Positions 1-7,341 of a stretch of DNA of 7,341 nucleotides are shown piece by piece (the first letter of the stretch is position 1; every line of letters begins with the position of its first letter). The notes below the pieces were generated by a model. The model was not told the origin of the DNA. It worked only from the letters and a program-made list of their open reading frames with translations, and did not search any database. The stretch comes from Actinomycetes bacterium. GTDB lineage: Bacteria; Actinomycetota; Acidimicrobiia; Acidimicrobiales; RAAP-2. The stretch is taken from contig JAJZMN010000059.1 of NCBI GenBank assembly GCA_021850345.1, forward strand, positions 1-7,341, written 5' to 3'. The position numbers were made by a program, and so were the translations under genes.

Positions 1-1156
1 CGAGCGCGGCCGGCAGCACCACGTCGGCGAGCTGGGCCGTCTTGGTCAAGAAGATGTCTTGGACCACGAGGTGGTCGAGCCCCTCGAGCAGGTGCACGGC
101 CCGGGGCGTGTCGGCCTCCGACTGCGCAGGGTTCTCACCCAGCACGTAGAGGGCACGGAGCTCGCCATGTTCCATGGCGTCGAACATCTGAGAGAGGTGC
201 CAGCCGCGCGTGGGCGGGACGCTGACCCCCCAGCGGGCGTCGAACTTGGCCCGGATGTCGTCGTTCTCTACGTCTTGGAAGCCTGGGAACTTGTTGGGCA
301 GTGCGCCCATGTCACCGCCGCCCTGGACGTTGTTCTGCCCGCGCAGCGGCACGAGCCCCGATCCGAAGCGACCGACGTGGCCGGTCAAAAGGGACAGGTC
401 GCACAACGCGAGGACGTTGTCGGTCGCGCTGTGGTGCTCGGTGATCCCGAGCGTCCAGCACAGCTGTGCCCGGTCTGCGCGCGCGTAGTCGTGCGCAAGT
501 GAGGCGATGAGGTCGGCTGGCACCCCAGTGAGCCGTTCGCCCTCGGCGAGGGTGAACGGCTCGACCGCCTCGGCGTACTCCTCGAAGCCGGTCGTCGCGC
601 GCCGCACGAACTCGGTGTTCACCAGGCCCGCGCGGATGATCTCCCTGCCCACCGTGTTGGCCAGGGCGATGTCGGAACCGACGTCGATGCCCATCCAGAC
701 GTCTGCCCACTGCGCCGAGGTCGAGCGACGCGGGTCGACCGCGTACATCTTCGCTCCGTGACGGAGGCCCTTCAGGAGGTGATGGAAGAAGATGGGGTGC
801 GCCTCACGGGCGTTCGATCCCCACAGGACGATGAGGTCGGTCTCTTCGATCTCCCGGTAGGAGCTCGTGCCGCCTCCGGCACCGAAGACTGCCGCCAGAC
901 CGGCGACGCTCGGTGCGTGTCAGGTGCGGTTGCACGAGTCGATGTTGTTCGACCCCATGACCGCCCGGGTGAACTTCTGGGCCAGGTAGTTGACCTCGTT
1001 GGACGACTTCGAGCAGCTGAACATGCCGTACTCGGTGCCGCGGTGGGCGGCGAACCCGGCGGCCGCCCGCTCGAGCGCCTCGTCCCAGCTCGCCGGCCGG
1101 AGAGCTCCGTGCTCTCGGACGAGCGGCTGCGTAAGTCGGGGAAGATGGCGGGGCAC
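1..1156 (-). CDS. fdhF: Selenocysteine-containing formate dehydrogenase catalytic subunit (3' end beyond left edge)
   Basis: Molybdopterin oxidoreductase of the formate dehydrogenase alpha family (formate to CO2 plus two electrons, Mo/W-bis-MGD cofactor). 385 codons are visible and the reading frame is open to the edge. Key blocks: WDEAL (residues 24-28), SCSKSSNEVNYLAQKF (47-62), then SCNRT-U79-HAPSVAGL, where codon 79 is TGA at the Mo-ligand position. After it come GAGGGTSSYREIEETDLIVLWGSN, RGQNNVQG (272-279; its Arg probably matches the catalytic Arg of E. coli FdhF) and GENPAQSEADT. I chose the GTG start because AAAGGAGG lies 5 nt upstream. No CxxC-type [4Fe-4S] motif occurs before the molybdopterin domain in any frame, so the usual ~60-residue N-terminal cluster domain is absent. 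The gene diverges from the PDZ gene. A conceptual translation that stops at TGA would call only a 78-residue fragment. Family assignment is firm; physiological partner and electron acceptor are unknown. Confidence 0.93.
879..916 (-). promoter_or_regulatory. Bacterial SECIS element (SelB-binding hairpin) inside fdhF
   Basis: The hairpin begins 3 nt after the UGA. The lower stem is 7 perfect pairs (GCACCGA with UCGGUGC), then a 2x5 internal loop, an upper stem of 6 pairs including one G-U (GUCGCC with GGCGGC), and the 5-nt apical loop GGUCU. The loop starts 18 nt after UGA. The E. coli fdhF SECIS, as I recall its sequence, has the same GGUCU at the same distance. Part of this follows from conserved protein sequence (SVAGL). 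However, the lower stem pairs the wobble A of a GCA codon with the wobble U of a GGU codon, an unusual choice in so GC-rich a gene and suggestive of selection on RNA structure. Confidence 0.85.
920..922 (-). other. In-frame TGA read as selenocysteine (Sec79)
   Basis: TGA sits between CNRT and HAPSVAGL, exactly where formate dehydrogenases carry Sec or Cys as the molybdenum ligand, followed by the conserved His. The same frame continues for 306 codons of clear homology to the left edge, so this is recoding and not the end of the gene. A nonsense mutation of an ancestral Cys codon is the only serious alternative, and the hairpin that follows argues against it. Confidence 0.92.
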
Positions 1157-1161
1157 CGCGG

Positions 1162-1169
1162 CCTCCTTT
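1162..1169 (-). promoter_or_regulatory. Ribosome binding site fixing the fdhF start
   Basis: AAAGGAGG is followed by 5 nt and GTG. This is the best Shine-Dalgarno match upstream of the molybdopterin domain and decides the start at 1156. It shows that the domain-short N-terminus is a real translation start and not an annotation artefact. Confidence 0.8.
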
Positions 1170-2444: not shown

Positions 2445-2472
2445 GAGCCGCGGGCATGCGTCACGCGGGCTC
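2445..2472. terminator. Candidate bidirectional terminator between convergent genes
   Basis: GAGCCGCG (2445-2452) pairs with CGCGGGCTC (2464-2472) with one bulged base around an 11-nt loop. It spans the 20-bp gap between the PDZ gene stop and the YihY gene stop and enters the last codons of the latter. There is no T-tract on either strand, so the call rests on position and symmetry. Confidence 0.35.
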
Positions 2473-3564
2473 CGGCCTCGGCGGCTCCTCGGCACTGGAC
2501 GCCGGGGTTTGCCCGGTCTGTAGAACCCGCCGCTCGGTCCCCACGACCGCAGCGTCGGCCTCGTCGATGTGGCCGCCCGTGACGAGGTAGTCCGACTGGG
2601 GCATGGGGCGGCCGCGCACTCGCGTCACGACCTCTTGCTCGGGACGCCGTTGGTTCTCGATTGCCTGGAGCGCGATCGAGTGCTGGTCGGCTGCGGTGAG
2701 CGGCGGCTGCACCATGCCGCGCGGCCAGAGGTGTCGCTTGACGACCGTGTTCAGCTCCGCGGCGTAGACGGTGACCTCCGCGCCGATGTAGATCCATGCG
2801 AGGAGGCCCAGCACCGTCCCGAACATGGCATAGACGGCGTTGTCGTCACGTAGGTAGTGCCCGACGACGTAGCTGCCCGTCGCCTGGAGCACCGACCAGG
2901 CGATGCCGCCGAATGCCGCGCCGAGGACCAAGTCACGGCTCGCCACCTGGCGCGGCGTGAGCACGCGGAACGCCGCGAGGTACAGGCCAACGTTGCATGC
3001 CGCTGCGAGTGCCTCCGCGCCGACCCCATACCAGTACTCGTGACTACCGAAGGTGCCGAAGCTCGAGAGGAACGTGGTGACGACGAGACCGATCCCGAGC
3101 ACGGCGAGGAACGTGAAGCTCCGCCCGACGCGCTTGACGCAGCTCGGCCGCACGGCGCCCGGGATGTTCCAGATCTGCTCCATCGCGTACATTCCGGCAC
3201 CGGCGAGCCCCGTGGAGCCGTAGAGGAGCCCGATGATGCCGACCGCGAACCCGAAGAGAGAGTTCCGCTTCATCACGTGGATGTTCTCGGCGAGCTTCGA
3301 GCCGACGATGGGGAATTGGGCGAACGCCGAGTGCAGCACGGCATGGCGCAATCCCGGGTGGCTGGCGAGGATGAGCGCCAGCGCGGTATCGAGCAAGAGC
3401 AGTAGCGGGAAGATCGTGGTGAACAAGGAGTAGGCGAGCTGCACGGTGAGCACCCCGGCGTTGTCGTCGCCGTACTTCTTGGTGAGCGCGACCACGAAGG
3501 CGATCGAGCCGTGCGCCTGCTGGAAGGCGTCGATGCACCGGAAGATCCGCTCGATCCGGTTCAC
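2461..3564 (-). CDS. YihY/BrkB family (UPF0761) inner-membrane protein
   Basis: 367 residues from the chosen start. Family landmarks: RIERIFRCIDAFQQ at the N-terminus, FVVALTKKYGDDNAGVLTVQLAYSLFTTIFPLLLLL (about 23-58), the small-residue helix GFAVGIIGLLYGSTGLAGAG (105-124), and GTVLGLLAWIYIGAEVTVYAAELN (249-272). About six membrane helices are predicted (40-66, 104-124, 149-168, 184-200, 210-230, 246-270), followed by a ~95-residue hydrophilic tail that is probably cytoplasmic. The family was once mis-named ribonuclease BN; its molecular role is unsettled. I chose GTG at 3564 because GGTGG lies 5 nt upstream and the protein then begins just before the conserved RIER..DAFQQ block. GTG codons slightly upstream (within about 40 nt) are possible alternatives. 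The frame extends to 3792, but that part carries no family homology and is antisense to the hemerythrin remnant. Confidence 0.9.
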   Translation of the reverse strand: MNRIERIFRCIDAFQQAHGSIAFVVALTKKYGDDNAGVLTVQLAYSLFTTIFPLLLLLDTALALILASHPGLRHAVLHSAFAQFPIVGSKLAENIHVMKRNSLFGFAVGIIGLLYGSTGLAGAGMYAMEQIWNIPGAVRPSCVKRVGRSFTFLAVLGIGLVVTTFLSSFGTFGSHEYWYGVGAEALAAACNVGLYLAAFRVLTPRQVASRDLVLGAAFGGIAWSVLQATGSYVVGHYLRDDNAVYAMFGTVLGLLAWIYIGAEVTVYAAELNTVVKRHLWPRGMVQPPLTAADQHSIALQAIENQRRPEQEVVTRVRGRPMPQSDYLVTGGHIDEADAAVVGTERRVLQTGQTPASSAEEPPRPEPA

Positions 3565-3664
3565 GGCGCCCACCGCCGATCGCACTGGCCCCGGCACCGC
3601 CGTTCTCGACTTCCCACACCGGGTCGGTACCCCTGCGGCGGACTGTCGATGTAGCGGTACTACA

Positions 3665-3902
3665 AGGGAGATGCACTTCTGGCCAACGGTGCGCGAGAAG
3701 ATCCCCGGTGGCGCCGTCCTGGCGGACATGGCGGTCAAGCAGGAAACGGAGGGCAAAGGGCAAGGTCCTCGACGCGCTGTGCAAGGCGACACCAGGAGCG
3801 CCCGAGTTCGCCGGGCTCGTCGTCACGTTCGCCAAGGCCGGCAACGAGCACGTCGCCTCCGAAGAGGAGAAGGTCTGGCCGGGCCGCGGCCGCGCCGACG
3901 TG
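3665..3902 (+). pseudogene. Truncated, frameshifted hemerythrin (HHE) domain gene remnant
   Basis: Two adjacent reading frames together encode a typical HHE second half. MHFWPTVREKIPGG through KQETEGK is in the frame of the ATG at 3671. KVLDALCKATPGAPEFAGL through NEHVASEEEKVWPG is in the frame shifted by one base. The junction is a 7-bp tandem duplication (3750-3763); removing one copy restores a continuous KQETEGKVLDALCK. The first half of the domain, with its first HxxxE metal ligands, is absent in all three plus frames before about 3665. The end runs into the stop codon of the convergent ABC gene, where the family's C-terminal tail is also lost. The E of the EMHFWP block and the H and E residues of NEHVASEEE remain, but an intact di-iron four-helix bundle cannot form. 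It is most likely a decaying remnant left by deletions or rearrangement between the YihY and ABC genes. Confidence 0.8.
3750..3763 (+). repeat. 7-bp tandem duplication causing a frameshift
   Basis: AGGGCAA occurs twice back to back (3750-3756, 3757-3763). Deleting one unit joins the two hemerythrin frames exactly, with no lost or gained residue. This marks it as the inactivating (or at least frame-breaking) event. Confidence 0.85.
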
Positions 3903-5705
3903 TCAGGCCGCGAGGAATCCGCCCGACTGGTGCCGCCAGAGGCGCCCATAGACACCGTCGTCTCCCAGCGCGAGCAGCTCGCGATGCGAGCCCTGCTCGA
4001 CGATCTCGCCATGGTCGAGCACCACGATCCGGTCGAGGCGCGCGATGGTGGCGAGCCGGTGGGCAACGACGAGTGCCGTGGAGCCAGCCATGAGGTGCCA
4101 CAACGCCTCTTGGACGAGTGCCTCTGATTCGGAGTCGAGGGACGAGGTGGCTTCGTCGAGGATGAGCAGCGGGGCCCCCTTCGCCATCGCCTGCGCGATC
4201 GCCACCCGTTGGCGTTGACCGCCAGAGAGCTTCAGGCCGCGCTCGCCGACGACCGTGTGGTAGCCGTCGGGGAGGCGCTGGACGAACTCTTCGACGTGCG
4301 CGGCGCGCCCGACTTCGCGTACGAGCTCCATGTCTGGCCCGTCCATACCCTCGAGCCCGTAGCAGATGTTCTCCGCGATGGTGCGGTGCAGCATCTGGGG
4401 ATCCTGGGGGACGAAGGAGATGTGCGCGCGCAGTGACGCCTGGGTGACCGTCGCGATGTCTTGTCCGTCGATGCTGATGGTGCCGCCCTCGATGTCCATG
4501 AAGCGCAGCACGAGCTTGGTGAGCGTGGTCTTCCCAGAGCCCGACGAGCCCACGAGGCCGACGTGCTCACCCGGCGCGATCGACAGCGAAAGCCCGTCGA
4601 ACAGCAGCGGTCGACCCGGATAGGAGAAGCGCAAGCCCGAAAGTGTGATGCAGCCGTCGGTGACCTCGAGCGGCCGCGCGTCGCCGGCATCGACGATCTC
4701 GGGCGGCGTCGCCGCGATCCCCGCGAATTTCGCACAGCGCCCGAGCCCGCGCGACGACGTACGGATGTGCTCGAACGACTCCTCCATCGAGGCGACGACG
4801 GAAGTCGCATAGAACAGGATCAGGTAGATCGTGCCGGCGGCCGCCGAGTGATGCAGGGCGAGGATGACGCCGACGACGATCGCGAGCCAGCTGAAGATGC
4901 CGAGCGATCCCTCCATCTGCAAGCGGGTCATGGCGAAGATGCGCCGGGCCTCGAGATCCGCGGCGACGGTCTGGCCGACGAGTGCCTCGACGTGGCGCCC
5001 CTCGAGCGGCTCGGCCGACTGCGTGCGAACGGTGGTGAGGTTCGAGATGGTGTCGGCGAGCACCCCGGTCGCGCGGCTGTGGGTGTCGGAGAACTTCTTG
5101 CCCGCGGCGACGACCAGCGACATGCGCGACGTCAATACGATGCAGAAGACGAGCACGAGCCCCGCCATCACCAGCGCGACGGGCCACGCGACGATCGCGA
5201 GCACCACGATCGCCGAGAGCACGGTCACGGCGATGCGCAAGAAGCCCCAGTTCAAGGTGTCGAGGAGGTCGACGAACGCCCATGAGAACGTCTCGAGCGT
5301 CGAGATGACTTCACCCGCGGGGCGATCCGAGTGCCAGCGGTGGCTGAGCGAAATGAGGTGCTTGTAGCCCTCGGTCAGCGCGTGCGAGAAGGCGCGCAAC
5401 GACGCGCCCCACTCCACCCATCCCGCCCACCGCCACATGAGGGTGCTGGCGACGAGGACCGCGCCGTAGGCGACGACGAGCGGCTCGAAGGTGGCGCTGA
5501 AGGACGCGTGCGGCGGGAGATCGGCGACGCGGGTCAGCAGTGCGGCGAAGATCAACGGTCCCGCGACCGACTGCAGTGAGGTCGCGACGCTGGTGAGGAC
5601 CCATCCGAAGATGGTGGCCCTCTTTTGCGGGCCGACCTGGCGCCAGCAGAACCGGAGGGTCTCGGCGGTCGACGATGCAGGGAAGAGCGAGTCGTCGCTC
5701 GTCAT
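3903..5705 (-). CDS. ABC exporter half-transporter (fused membrane and ATPase domains)
   Basis: 600 residues, a normal length for a type IV exporter half-transporter that works as a dimer in the cytoplasmic membrane. Residues 1-320 hold about six membrane helices (near 32-57, 76-96, 155-175, 177-193, 270-286, 289-306). The nucleotide-binding domain (350-590) is complete: A-loop Tyr in FSYPGR (362), Walker A GSSGSGKT (386-393), Q-loop VPQDPQ (Q434), signature LSGGQ (493-497), Walker B LLILDE (513-518) with catalytic Glu518, D-loop SSLD, and H-loop His549 in VVAHRLAT. The ATG is preceded by GGAG at 7 nt spacing. The gene stands alone, with no partner ABC gene in view, so it probably homodimerises. 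Substrate cannot be told from sequence: lipid, peptide and drug exporters share this layout. It has a long upstream region containing a promoter and strong hairpins, so expression may be controlled in the leader. Confidence 0.95.
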   Translation of the reverse strand: MTSDDSLFPASSTAETLRFCWRQVGPQKRATIFGWVLTSVATSLQSVAGPLIFAALLTRVADLPPHASFSATFEPLVVAYGAVLVASTLMWRWAGWVEWGASLRAFSHALTEGYKHLISLSHRWHSDRPAGEVISTLETFSWAFVDLLDTLNWGFLRIAVTVLSAIVVLAIVAWPVALVMAGLVLVFCIVLTSRMSLVVAAGKKFSDTHSRATGVLADTISNLTTVRTQSAEPLEGRHVEALVGQTVAADLEARRIFAMTRLQMEGSLGIFSWLAIVVGVILALHHSAAAGTIYLILFYATSVVASMEESFEHIRTSSRGLGRCAKFAGIAATPPEIVDAGDARPLEVTDGCITLSGLRFSYPGRPLLFDGLSLSIAPGEHVGLVGSSGSGKTTLTKLVLRFMDIEGGTISIDGQDIATVTQASLRAHISFVPQDPQMLHRTIAENICYGLEGMDGPDMELVREVGRAAHVEEFVQRLPDGYHTVVGERGLKLSGGQRQRVAIAQAMAKGAPLLILDEATSSLDSESEALVQEALWHLMAGSTALVVAHRLATIARLDRIVVLDHGEIVEQGSHRELLALGDDGVYGRLWRHQSGGFLAA

Positions 5706-5878
5706 GTGCGTGCTCCGTGTGGTGGTGTCGAGGGATCGTGGTCAGTAGTCGGTGCATGCAGCCATGTGTCGCAGATGCACCCGAGGGCTCACGGCGCGAG
5801 CCGGTGGTCTGGGCGCAGCGGGCGGGCGCGGCATGCGCGGCCCATCGGGCGTCGGGGGATGGACGGGGTCGAGTGATA

Positions 5879-5917
5879 CGGCACCCGGACGGCCGCTCGT
5901 CGGCCACGCGGGTGCCG
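5879..5917 (-). other. Strong 39-nt hairpin in the ABC gene leader
   Basis: Outer arms CGGCACCCG (5879-5887) and CGGGTGCCG (5909-5917) are 9 perfect pairs. After a 3x3 segment that can form two G-U pairs come inner arms GGCCG and CGGCC (5 pairs) closing a 5-nt loop. It lies about 175 nt upstream of the ABC start codon. No T-tract follows on either strand, so it is not a classical intrinsic terminator. It may be a leader structure, an RNA stabiliser or a DNA-level binding site. Confidence 0.6.
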
Positions 5918-5929
5918 CGGCCGCGAAAG

Positions 5930-5959
5930 CCCTGCTGCGCCGCGTCCCTGCTGCGCCGC
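5930..5959. repeat. 14-bp direct repeat with 16-bp period
   Basis: CCCTGCTGCGCCGC occurs at 5930-5943 and 5946-5959, separated by 2 bp. The 16-bp period is not a multiple of three, which speaks against a coding origin. Confidence 0.7.
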
Positions 5960-6087
5960 TACGTGGCTGCCGCGCAGCACGCGGCGACGCCAGGGTCGTC
6001 CGACATGGCGCGTCCGGCACGTACGTCAGGACTTGCATACTGCGTGGGCGACCCGTCCGATCGGCCGTGAACGATGCTGCGTGCCAT
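5959..6087 (-). CDS. Possible 42-residue small ORF in the ABC leader (weak)
   Basis: ATG at 6087 follows GAGG with 8 nt spacing and lies about 31 nt downstream of the putative transcription start of the promoter at 6125-6153. The peptide begins MARSIVHGRSDG and ends VAACCAAAT; it has no recognisable domain, signal or membrane segment. It is listed because promoter, ribosome binding site and ATG are in proper order, which would suit a leader peptide or small protein. Composition gives no independent support, and a chance ORF in GC-rich DNA is as likely. Confidence 0.2.
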   Translation of the reverse strand: MARSIVHGRSDGSPTQYASPDVRAGRAMSDDPGVAACCAAAT

Positions 6088-6124
6088 CAGGGTCACCTCG
6101 CATTCTGCTCTGACCGAACCCGTC

Positions 6125-6153
6125 ATCTTATCCCAGGTGGCTGCAGCTGTAAA
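6125..6153 (-). promoter_or_regulatory. Sigma70-like promoter facing the ABC exporter gene
   Basis: On the minus strand, TTTACA (-35; 5 of 6 consensus) and TAAGAT (-10; 4 of 6) are separated by exactly 17 nt, inside an AT-rich island of otherwise GC-rich DNA. The transcription start would be near 6118, giving an ABC leader of about 410 nt. It is the best promoter match in the window. Confidence 0.6.
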
Positions 6154-6190
6154 TACCTCTACGTACGCGAACAAGGGATGCTCCCACCTG
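6134..6190. promoter_or_regulatory. 7-bp inverted repeat round a TACGTA palindrome
   Basis: CAGGTGG (6134-6140, inside the promoter spacer) and CCACCTG (6184-6190) are perfect inverted copies. The midpoint, near 6162, falls on the palindrome TACGTA (6160-6165). The arms flank the -35 box, an arrangement that could serve a dimeric regulator or looping. Function is inferred from geometry only. Confidence 0.3.
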
Positions 6191-6233
6191 TGCGTCTGCA
6201 AGGATCTCCGCGCGGCAGCGCAGTCGCAGCCAT

Positions 6234-6251
6234 GCTGCGCGCAGACGCAGC
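6234..6251 (-). terminator. Weak candidate terminator after phoU
   Basis: GCTGCG and CGCAGC arms (6 pairs) enclose a 6-nt loop, starting 22 nt after the phoU stop codon. No T-tract follows. It could end phoU transcription only in the relaxed sense seen in GC-rich actinobacteria. Confidence 0.25.
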
Positions 6252-6273
6252 GTCGCGCGTCTGGTGTTGCCTG

Positions 6274-6870
6274 CTACTCCTCGACCGACGCGACGCGACG
6301 GCTGAGGTTCACGGCATGGTCGCCCAGGCGCTCGTAAAATCGCGCGAGGAGGGTGACCTGCGCTGCCACCGACGGCTGCATCGCCCCACCCGAGACCTCG
6401 GTCGTGAGTCGCTGATGGAGGATGTCGAGCTCTTCATCTGTCTCGTGCAGCTCGAGGACACGGGCCTCGCCGCTCGCGAAGGCGTCGGCCGCCGCGCGCC
6501 ACATTTCGATCGCGACTTCCGACATGCGCTGCACGATGCCGCGGCTCACGGGGGTCATCTCGCCACCGAGCCCGTAGAGCGCGCGCTGGGCGATGTGCTC
6601 GGCGAGATCGGCGCTACGCTCGAGCTCGGGGAGGACGAGCAGCATGGCGATCACGTGGCGCAGCTCGGCGGCCCGGTCCGTGAGAGAGTCGACCTCGCGC
6701 CACAGCGACTCTTCGGCCGCAGCCACCTGGTCGTCCATCGCCCGGTCGTCTGCGACCACCTGGCGTCCGAGCTCCGAGTCGGCGTTCAACAGTGCGAACG
6801 TCGCCCGTGCGAGCGCTTCGCTCACCTGGGCGAACAGCGCCTGCACCCGGCGGGAGGTCTCGTCGTCCAC
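6274..6870 (-). CDS. phoU: PhoU, phosphate signalling regulator
   Basis: 198-residue, all-helical PhoU protein, slightly shorter than the usual ~215-220. Both PhoU repeats are present, each with its metal-binding ExxxD motif: ERSAD (84-88) and ERLGD followed by HAVNLS (180-190). In the known family, PhoU links a phosphate transporter to the sensor kinase of the Pho two-component system and helps keep it off when phosphate is plentiful. The start is GTG at 6870: an in-frame TAA lies 6 nt upstream, and AGGG precedes the GTG by 8 nt. An ATG at 6874 is out of frame. The gene diverges from a PHS-type transporter gene, with a PHO box 31-63 nt upstream of its start, so phosphate starvation probably induces it. 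No pst or phoR/phoP genes are in the window; these may be elsewhere, or PhoU may partner the MFS transporter here. Confidence 0.95.
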   Translation of the reverse strand: MDDETSRRVQALFAQVSEALARATFALLNADSELGRQVVADDRAMDDQVAAAEESLWREVDSLTDRAAELRHVIAMLLVLPELERSADLAEHIAQRALYGLGGEMTPVSRGIVQRMSEVAIEMWRAAADAFASGEARVLELHETDEELDILHQRLTTEVSGGAMQPSVAAQVTLLARFYERLGDHAVNLSRRVASVEE

Positions 6871-6900
6871 CCATTAGACCCTAGCGAGGGCCCCCGGGTG

Positions 6901-6933
6901 GTTCACTGACTGTTCGCGTGCAGTTCACCTTCG
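6901..6933 (+). promoter_or_regulatory. PHO box: three contiguous 11-bp PhoP direct-repeat units
   Basis: Units GTTCACTGACT (6901-6911), GTTCGCGTGCA (6912-6922) and GTTCACCTTCG (6923-6933) follow with exact 11-bp spacing. A degenerate fourth (TGTCATG...) starts at 6934. This matches the established actinobacterial (Streptomyces-type) PhoP site, direct repeats of GTTCACC-like heads every 11 bp. It lies between phoU and the PHS transporter and can serve both divergent promoters. I could not place a clear -10 box for either gene. Confidence 0.8.
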
Positions 6934-6989
6934 TGTCATGAAGAGATTGCCCACAGGTCACGTGGCGGCGCAATAGTGGCCGAAGACCG

Positions 6990-7341
6990 ATGTCGCGCTC
7001 GACCCACCGCCCTCCAGCCCCTGGTGCCTCGGTGCCGTCGGCGTCCTCTATCGGCACCCTCCTCGACGAGACCCCGATGTCGAAGTTCCACCGCCGTGCG
7101 GTGCTCGTCGCCGGCGTCGGGTTCTTCACCGACGCATATGACCTGTTCGTCATCAGCACGGTCGGCGTCTTGGTCCAGGCGGAGTGGCACCTCAGCACCT
7201 CCCAGACCAGCTGGGTGGAGGGTGCTGCCATCCTGGGAGCCTTCGTCGGTGCGCTCGTCTTCGGCCGCATCGCCGACCTGATCGGCCGGCGCCGGGTGTT
7301 CGCTCTCGTTGCCGCCGTGATGATCGCGGGGGCCGTCGCCT
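6990..7341 (+). CDS. PHS-family MFS transporter, probable phosphate:H+ symporter (3' end beyond right edge)
   Basis: 117 residues of the N-terminus are visible. After a ~30-residue polar leader come SKFHRRAVLVAGVGFFTDAYDLFVIST (31-57), whose GFFTDAYDLFVI helix is the hallmark of the phosphate:H+ symporter (Pho84-like) branch of the major facilitator superfamily, then helix 2 (SWVEGAAILGAFVGALVFGRIADL), the MFS motif A loop GRIADLIGRRR (92-102) and the start of helix 3. The ATG at 6990 is the first in the frame; a TGA lies at 6939. Only a weak GAAGA precedes it, and another ATG (residue 30) lies just before the conserved block. Divergence from phoU across a PHO box strongly supports a role in inorganic phosphate uptake under starvation, although some PHS relatives carry other organic or inorganic anions. 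Confidence 0.9.
   Translation, partial: MSRSTHRPPAPGASVPSASSIGTLLDETPMSKFHRRAVLVAGVGFFTDAYDLFVISTVGVLVQAEWHLSTSQTSWVEGAAILGAFVGALVFGRIADLIGRRRVFALVAAVMIAGAVA

Follow-up and report, generated by a model that had tools for sequence, protein, structure and literature searches.

Formate dehydrogenase with selenocysteine (Sec) and a bacterial SECIS (bSECIS) element is a textbook case. The catalytic chain usually starts with a [4Fe-4S] domain (PF04879); Escherichia coli FdhH has such a domain of its own and is not known to be NAD-linked. FdhA is placed among the most widespread bacterial selenoproteins in the accessible text of two papers (PMC13188914, PMC5029168). The available part of PMC10100899 tabulates the NAD-reducing enzymes of FdsA type with Cys, and the acetogenic NAD-dependent enzymes with Sec or Cys. 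FDH3 of Actinomycetospora chiangmaiensis DSM 45062, which we infer to belong to another class of Actinomycetota, is presented in the accessible part of PMC7176365 as a cytoplasmic, three-subunit, selenocysteine-containing enzyme whose subunits were detected by proteomics. According to the same text, formate accumulates in this organism without selenite, the Se-dependent removal of formate was attributed to FDH1 and FDH3, and SECIS elements were searched with bSECISearch. That text already covers the core claim made here for a cultured actinobacterium, and the locus described below is a well-supported but largely expected instance of a known mechanism.

The window, by which we mean the whole stretch of 7,341 nt analysed here, contained the 5' part of an fdhA gene in which the TGA at 922-920 was the single internal stop, the rest of the frame being open to the window edge. 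A near-identical contig (JAJZJC010000020.1, here L001) of the metagenome-assembled genome (MAG) LSA5.bin114, also labelled G001, matched the window with 99.76% identity over 7341 nt (3 mismatches, 15 gap positions). It carried the full-length gene (L001:10046-11977), encoding 643 aa with U at residue 79 and using TGA as the terminal stop. The features of the locus are collected in Table 1.

Table 1. Features of the fdhA locus in the window and, where marked L001, on the near-identical contig
Feature	Position	Strand	Remarks
fdhA 5' part	1..1156	(-)	Mo-bisMGD catalytic subunit of formate dehydrogenase; starts with GTG at 1156; gene runs past the window edge
Shine-Dalgarno-like AAGGAGG	1162..1168	(-)	5 nt ahead of the GTG start; direct sequence reading
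UGA codon, residue 79, Mo-ligand position	920..922	(-)	read as selenocysteine; homologue comparison
bSECIS hairpin	879..916	(-)	folding and homologue comparison
Lower stem 5' side, conserved part +6 to +10	912..916	(-)	pairing reaches 910 in the window
Lower stem 3' side, conserved part +39 to +43	879..883	(-)	pairing reaches 885 in the window
Upper stem 5' side, +15 to +20	902..907	(-)	99.3% of cells paired
Upper stem 3' side, +26 to +31	891..896	(-)	99.3% of cells paired
Apical loop GGUCU, +21 to +25	897..901	(-)	wobble U at 899 invariant, 127/127 TGA homologues
fdhB	L001:11977-13860		downstream of fdhA; 627 aa, NuoE-like and NuoF-like
fdhC	L001:13857-14792		downstream of fdhB; 311 aa

The UGA of fdhA aligned with the Cys at the ligand position of HDCR FdhF (E 1.1e-105) and with the ligand position of E. 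coli FdhH (E 2.4e-94), where the PDB sequence has an X that we take to be Sec. The site read CNRT-U-HAPSVAGL and contained, as UHAP, the Mo-ligand motif U-H-x-P that the accessible text of PMC13188914 lists for the formate dehydrogenase alpha subunit. An earlier sequence-only reading of this DNA had placed a TGA at the Mo-ligand codon with a homologous frame continuing beyond it, and both position and sequence proved correct. It had also expected that automated annotation would split the gene. This was indeed the fate of the three database copies examined from close relatives (P0068, P0075, and P0080; 552-582 aa), which begin at residue 90, directly after the UGA. The fdhA UGA is very probably decoded as selenocysteine, judging from the comparisons that follow.

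Genome contigs were scanned for relatives, and of 155 confirmed loci the best 80 were taken; the ligand codon was TGA in all 80, L001 included. By their NCBI record names, which may be wrong where they are MAG labels, these 80 of 155 loci came from Actinomycetota (45), Acidobacteriota (12), Chloroflexota (4), Planctomycetota (3), Dormiibacterota (2), Pseudomonadota (2), Bacillota (1), and Gemmatimonadota (1), with 10 unnamed. One locus (L052) additionally carried a 33% identical paralogue with TGC. The alignment set joined the 80 loci with loci from three genome searches, giving 159 matches that covered the codon at 50% identity or more; the row of L069, whose codon is TGA, was dropped, apparently for an N in its stretch. 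After removal of identical stretches, 149 non-redundant homologues remained, 127 with TGA and 22 with Cys (14 TGC, 8 TGT), a proportion that mirrors the choice of searches and not nature. The alternation of Sec and Cys at this codon, by which the sequence-only reading had proposed to judge it, was therefore found. On an unrooted FdhA tree (FastTree, residues 74-96 left out) the Sec/Cys state changed once. Among the closest known relatives were Streptomyces proteins named 'molybdopterin oxidoreductase family protein' (~640-650 aa, e.g. P0003), which were equal to FdhA in size, 66-69% identical among those listed, and likewise matched PF00384 and PF01568 only; the 22 loci without TGA fetched with P0003 encoded Cys at the ligand position, with unconstrained wobbles.

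These counts bear on two other explanations of the codon. The TGA could stem from an error in sequencing or be a mutation that disables the gene, with fdhA a pseudogene or its codon in truth one for Cys; a frame that is open but for one in-frame stop would look like this, and the support for Sec is at the sequence level. Yet the TGA recurred in the separate 99.8% identical record L001, which may stem from the same reads, as well as in 80/80 loci (the best 80 of 155) and 127 non-redundant genes, which refutes the explanation for the family. The frame also remained open and homologous past the TGA, and the wobble constraint described below was confined to the TGA set, so that error or decay has a negligible probability here. 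Alternatively, UGA could be reassigned to Trp or Gly throughout the genome, or read through without a SECIS element. A more distant metagenome protein (P0008) has W at the ligand position, as if translated with another code, as such a reassignment would have it. Against it, fdhA itself terminates in TGA, the non-TGA homologues had Cys in 22/22 cases and never Trp or Gly, tRNA-Sec and SelB were present, and the hairpin was constrained only beside TGA. We consider reassignment or unaided readthrough extremely improbable, and decoding as Sec is the reading followed below.

In the window the hairpin began 3 nt past the UGA and consisted of the stems 916-910/885-879 (7 pairs) and 907-902/896-891 (6 pairs). 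Both formed in a free fold, plus two marginal extra pairs. The same two-tier structure had been drawn in the sequence-only reading; it stood for the window, but in the family 5 of the 7 lower pairs were kept (+6 to +10 with +39 to +43), +11/+38 pairing in only 28/127 homologues and +12/+37 in 84/127. The accessible text of PMC13188914 quotes four numerical criteria of the bSECIS model, namely an apical loop of 3-9 nt on an upper stem of 4-16 bp, a G in loop position 1 or 2, a spacing of 16-37 nt from UGA to loop, and a minimum free energy of -7.5 kcal/mol or lower. The hairpin had a 5-nt loop on a 6-bp stem, the G of GGUCU in 127/127 homologues, a loop beginning 18 nt past the UGA, and energies of -8.9 kcal/mol for the upper hairpin and -22.0 kcal/mol for +6 to +43. 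No Rfam family reached its gathering score within the window. Single-sequence folding could not tell the hairpin from chance, as the z-scores were weak (-0.54 for 53 nt, -2.53 for 44 nt, -0.42 for 34 nt, and -1.36 for 48 nt), and it was dropped as proof of the hairpin. The GGUCU loop that the sequence-only reading gave for E. coli fdhF was borne out: the K-12 gene reads TGACACGGCCCATCGGTTGCAGGTCTGCACC, with GGTCT at the identical offset +21 to +25 and U at +16 as in the window. The fold of the E. coli element differs in that a 4-nt loop is closed by A-U and a U at +17 is unpaired in the 5' strand, whereas in the window C-G closes a 5-nt loop and there is no bulge, the stem register being one base off that of E. 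coli.

Comparison of homologues, unlike single-sequence folding, argues strongly from the sequences that the hairpin lies beyond chance. The loop codons were GGU-CUG in 127/127 TGA homologues and variable in the 22 Cys homologues. In the TGA set the wobbles at +20 (C), +23 (T), and +26 (G) were invariant (127/127); in the Cys set (n=22) they were C11 G10 A1, C9 T5 G4 A4, and G15 C7, respectively. Wobble variability was ranked over the 167 columns conserved in at least 90% of the sequences as G, A, V, P, T, L, R, or S, and the upper hairpin contained all four of the least variable wobbles, those of residues 86, 87, 84, and 88.

This conservation might be owed to the active-site peptide HAPSVAGL and not to an RNA element, as the amino acids fix many of the paired positions and single sequences barely outfold their shuffles. 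The Cys homologues argue otherwise, since their wobbles were free on a nearly identical peptide (the mixture at +23 just given versus T in 127/127), and compensatory changes at +17/+29 and covarying ones at +8/+41 fell on synonymous sites. The peptide is thus a very unlikely cause, and the conservation is best read as that of a bSECIS element.

The sequence-only reading had suggested looking for covariation in the stem, and the stem did show compensatory changes. At +17/+29, which joins two wobble positions of the well-paired upper stem, C-G occurred in 116 and G-C in 11 homologues, so that 127/127 were paired, a number reached in 0/2000 shuffles; +19/+27 had two U-A beside C-G and U-G. On the FdhA tree +17 and +29 each changed at least 7 times, and on supported branches 5/5 independent contrasts agreed (sign test p 0.0625, five being too few for 0.05). 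The pair +8/+41 in the lower stem is the pairing of a wobble A (GCA) with a wobble U (GGU) to which the sequence-only reading had drawn attention as two AT-ending codons. The GC3 of fdhA was 0.908, with GCA used in 8/69 Ala codons and GGT in 7/57 Gly codons. This pair was formed in 95/127 homologues against a shuffled mean of 67.5, with 0/2000 shuffles as high, and appeared as U-A, A-U, C-G, G-U, and U-G. Its tree contrasts (agree/oppose), among the codings listed, were 7.5/1.0 coded as T-A (median p 0.065), 2.2/1.1 as A-T, and 4.2/1.0 as C-G; control pairs, among those listed, gave 3.4/4.7, 3.4/2.5, and 2.2/0.7.

Some pairs that are not part of the model beat the shuffles as well (+8/+44 and +14/+32 at 0/2000, +12/+36 at 1/2000), and shuffling therefore overstates significance by ignoring relatedness; covariation is better judged from the tree contrasts. 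Over 117 distinct alignment rows, the model structure paired 88.6% of cells versus 28.0-64.6% in versions slid against it. With the 3' side slid by +3, double-changed cells (80 vs 43) and pair types (17 vs 15) exceeded those of the model, while paired cells (64.6% vs 88.6%) and the covariation score (0.115 vs 0.171) fell below it. In a control with 500 shuffles, 3/5 measures lay above all shuffles; pairs changed on both sides and further pair types were no better than the 500 shuffles. Of the 9 pairs that RNAalifold retained, 3 belonged to the lower stem.

The genes for Sec decoding, which the sequence-only reading had named as the check on its view that the organism decodes Sec, were searched in the MAG that holds the 99.8% identical fdhA contig. 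This MAG is fragmented, and its sel genes lay on contigs other than that of fdhA. tRNA-Sec (selC) was found at G001:C29:11483-11574 with 67.8 bits (cut-off 47) and was called SeC with anticodon tca by ARAGORN; the second-best tRNA match, at 46.0 bits, marks the background of ordinary tRNAs. A selB-selD-selA cluster occupied contig C46. SelB scored 260.5 bits (cut-off 242.25) with the SelB winged helix PF09107, its six-frame match alone scoring 239.3, below that cut-off, and SelD scored 328.1 bits (cut-off 125). With selC, selB, and selD present, the expectation of Sec decoding was supported. For selA, the start of the gene was there, reading LRPVVNATGVLLHTNLGRAPLG, as is typical of SelA, but the contig end cuts the gene, and the fragment scored 63.7 bits over profile 68-142 only, below the cut-off. 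FdhD was encoded on contig C140 (163.1 bits, cut-off 140.9). The MAG holds two FdhA copies (L104 on C13 and L142 on C137), 83% identical and both with TGA, which is compatible with paralogues or with two strains in one bin. In other lineages the decoding genes shared a contig with fdhA. In Comamonas badia and a Comamonas MAG (L058, L064), tRNA-Sec and selB lay ~4.5-6.6 kb from the Sec codon of fdhA; in L031 both lay, together with selD, ~8-10 kb from that codon. By gene order this linkage is compatible with a joint transfer of the enzyme and its decoding genes.

We further surveyed tRNA-Sec in 296 genomes of the class, which is probably Acidimicrobiia, the nearest named relatives (L002, L007) being Acidimicrobiaceae. 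A carrier of FdhA was defined by a match of at least 59% identity with TGA inside, and 96/296 genomes carried such a match; several of the 96 were cut by contig ends (G091 and G277 to <215 residues), and the position of the codon was confirmed for the fetched loci only. The single listed match of at least 59% identity without TGA (G091, residues 185-483) lay outside the codon. tRNA-Sec was found in 193/296 genomes, in 87/96 carriers versus 106/200 others (Fisher 2e-11, relatedness ignored). Such a presence in two thirds of the class sample is a broader result than one selenoprotein gene.

These numbers also speak to the suspicion that the sel genes and tRNA-Sec of the MAG came from another organism in the bin, the host being without Sec decoding. 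A MAG with its sel genes on other contigs, and two FdhA copies whose 83% identity fits mixed strains, would agree with such an origin; the frequency of tRNA-Sec in the class and among its FdhA carriers, and the same-contig linkage in L058, L064, and L031, go against it. We regard a foreign origin of these genes as very improbable, and a host that itself decodes Sec is the reading we retain.

In a phylum sample of 396 genomes, overlapping that of the class, tRNA-Sec was present in 206/396, including 38/43 TGA carriers (at least 52% identity to P0003); G462 was left out of this count, its match missing the codon. Four further carriers had no stop and were Cys by sequence, with tRNA-Sec in 1/4. 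One genome (G631, locus L137) had a Cys-type FdhA 80% identical to P0003 together with tRNA-Sec, and may thus hold the Cys form while decoding Sec. At E 1e-9, tRNA-Sec was not found in 9/96 class and 5/43 phylum-sample TGA carriers. A laxer search of these 14 gave matches at 1e-7 in 6/14, two of which cleared the cut-off narrowly (48.0 and 47.6 bits), near the ordinary-tRNA level in G001. Incomplete MAGs are the likeliest cause of the missing tRNA-Sec. Some matches of lower identity (33-42%) also showed a TGA; among the carriers, six genomes (G227, G122, G007, G231, G057, and G080) had distant FdhA relatives (33-41% identity) with TGA inside the match, perhaps other types of Sec-containing formate dehydrogenase. 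Twenty class genomes of 0.6-1.1 Mb, picked for their tRNA-Sec (G006, G012, G018, G026, G030, G034, G038, G042, G046, G050, G054, G058, G062, G066, G070, G074, G078, G109, G141, and G152), had no FdhA match at 1e-60; selD exceeded its cut-off with exactly one internal TGA in 20/20. Genomes of this small size seem to retain Sec decoding with a putative Sec-containing SelD. In open-access text, Acidimicrobiia and selenocysteine co-occurred only in PMC5649159, and 'acidimicrob' occurred 0 times in the main texts of PMC5029168 and PMC13188914.

On L001, fdhA, fdhB, and fdhC overlapped by TGATG and ATGA. FdhA matched PF00384 and PF01568 with PF04879 absent, in contrast to E. coli FdhH with its own [4Fe-4S] domain, and the in-frame Cys cluster motif was found upstream in 0/80 loci (one cut by a contig edge). 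PF04879 was found instead at residues 256-307 of P0123, which is FdhC minus its first Met (E 1.5e-20), behind 2Fe-2S and 4Fe-4S domains of NuoG-N type. The TIGR01591 profile was divided in the same way: FdhA matched profile 51-672 with 616.6, below the cut-off of 666.25 because it lacks the first 50 positions of the profile, and profile 1-48 was matched by FdhC 260-307 with 54.1 bits. FdhB matched PF01257, PF01512, and PF10589, which makes it a partner of NuoE/NuoF type. The order fdhA-fdhB-fdhC with the [4Fe-4S] domain on FdhC was kept in 56/58 loci with at least 3200 nt past the fdhA match; FdhC was not found in L060, and in L062 the same parts lay farther off. FdhC lies outside the window, and the domain split had not been noticed in the sequence-only reading.

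Among the closest known enzymes are the NAD-dependent ones of FdsABGD/MeFDH1 type. FdhC matched residues 22-303 of FdsA (6tg9; E 2.5e-49), and FdhB matched their NuoF-type partners. The NuoG-N-like domains that FdsA has fused to its catalytic chain were on the separate downstream FdhC here; FdsA is one chain, whereas in the enzyme described here a break follows the [4Fe-4S] domain, the gene for the N-terminal half comes last, and Sec is the ligand. Set beside the accessible table of PMC10100899, it is mildly surprising to find an FdsA-like enzyme with Sec and a divided chain. Fission of an FdsA-like chain fitted better than an ancestry before fusion. An origin of FdsA from unfused FdhA and FdhC was considered and judged less likely, since FdhC carries the [4Fe-4S] domain that is native to the Mo chain. 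The subunits of A. chiangmaiensis FDH3 have 640/614/316 aa against 643/627/311 here, and from these sizes only, FDH3 may be a homologue with the same split [4Fe-4S] domain, and so of the same family. A split formate dehydrogenase of the fdhA/fdhC kind was not described in the open-access text available to us, including the accessible parts of PMC10100899, PMC13397495, and PMC7331816.

Taken together with the known enzymes, the genes predict a cytoplasmic, NAD-linked formate dehydrogenase made from fdhA-fdhB-fdhC. SelB-GTP-Sec-tRNA(Sec) would bind the GGUCU hairpin 3' of the UGA and deliver Sec in place of termination, and the side chain of Sec79 would ligate Mo (or W) in the bis-MGD site. FdhA would comprise the Mo/Sec domains only, FdhB, of NuoE-NuoF type, would hold FMN and bind NAD, and FdhC would contribute the 2Fe-2S/4Fe-4S domains of NuoG-N type and the C-terminal [4Fe-4S] domain. 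If the reaction runs in the direction of formate oxidation, with NAD as the probable acceptor and FdhA assembled on FdhC, formate would pass its electrons to Mo-Se, from where they would cross the interface between FdhA and FdhC, reach the [4Fe-4S] cluster of FdhC, and move on to FMN and NAD+ in FdhB.

A wider reading, which we put forward tentatively and hold slightly more doubtful than probable, is that these genes represent an undescribed lineage of NAD-linked Sec-containing formate dehydrogenase, an FdsA-like chain cut and reordered, spread under eight phylum labels with its SECIS intact, in a class (probably Acidimicrobiia) that has a Sec-decoding majority and includes genomes of 0.6-1.1 Mb with a Sec-containing SelD. 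Were the split lineage real, electrons would have to cross a protein-protein interface right beside the Mo-Se site. Selenium-dependent formate oxidation may be under-counted, because gene callers can cut the gene at the UGA and the NCBIfam model for the alpha subunit stays under its cut-off as a result of the split chain. The FdhA family, with its frozen wobbles and covarying pairs, is a clean comparative set for the rules of bacterial SECIS elements in GC-rich genomes. Carriers among named strains (Comamonas badia DSM 17552 and Aquisphaera insulae JC669) make a test possible.

The neighbours at 2464-7340 of the window were a YihY/BrkB-family membrane protein (-), an ABC transporter (-), PhoU (-), and an MFS transporter (+), none with an evident link to formate or selenium. 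A frameshifted hemerythrin-like gene had been suspected by eye at 3671-3905, in two short pieces in different frames, and was rejected as Pfam gave nothing in either piece. The gene at 1418-2440 had no Pfam match; its N-terminal part was PGPWATG-rich and its C-terminal part PDZ-like by eye. Tandem repeats with 15- and 18-nt units lay inside this gene at 1658-1798, where the window is 15 nt longer than L001, and 60 bases within them (1682-1741) were present in the window and not found in L001, the offset between the two shifting by 15 across them.
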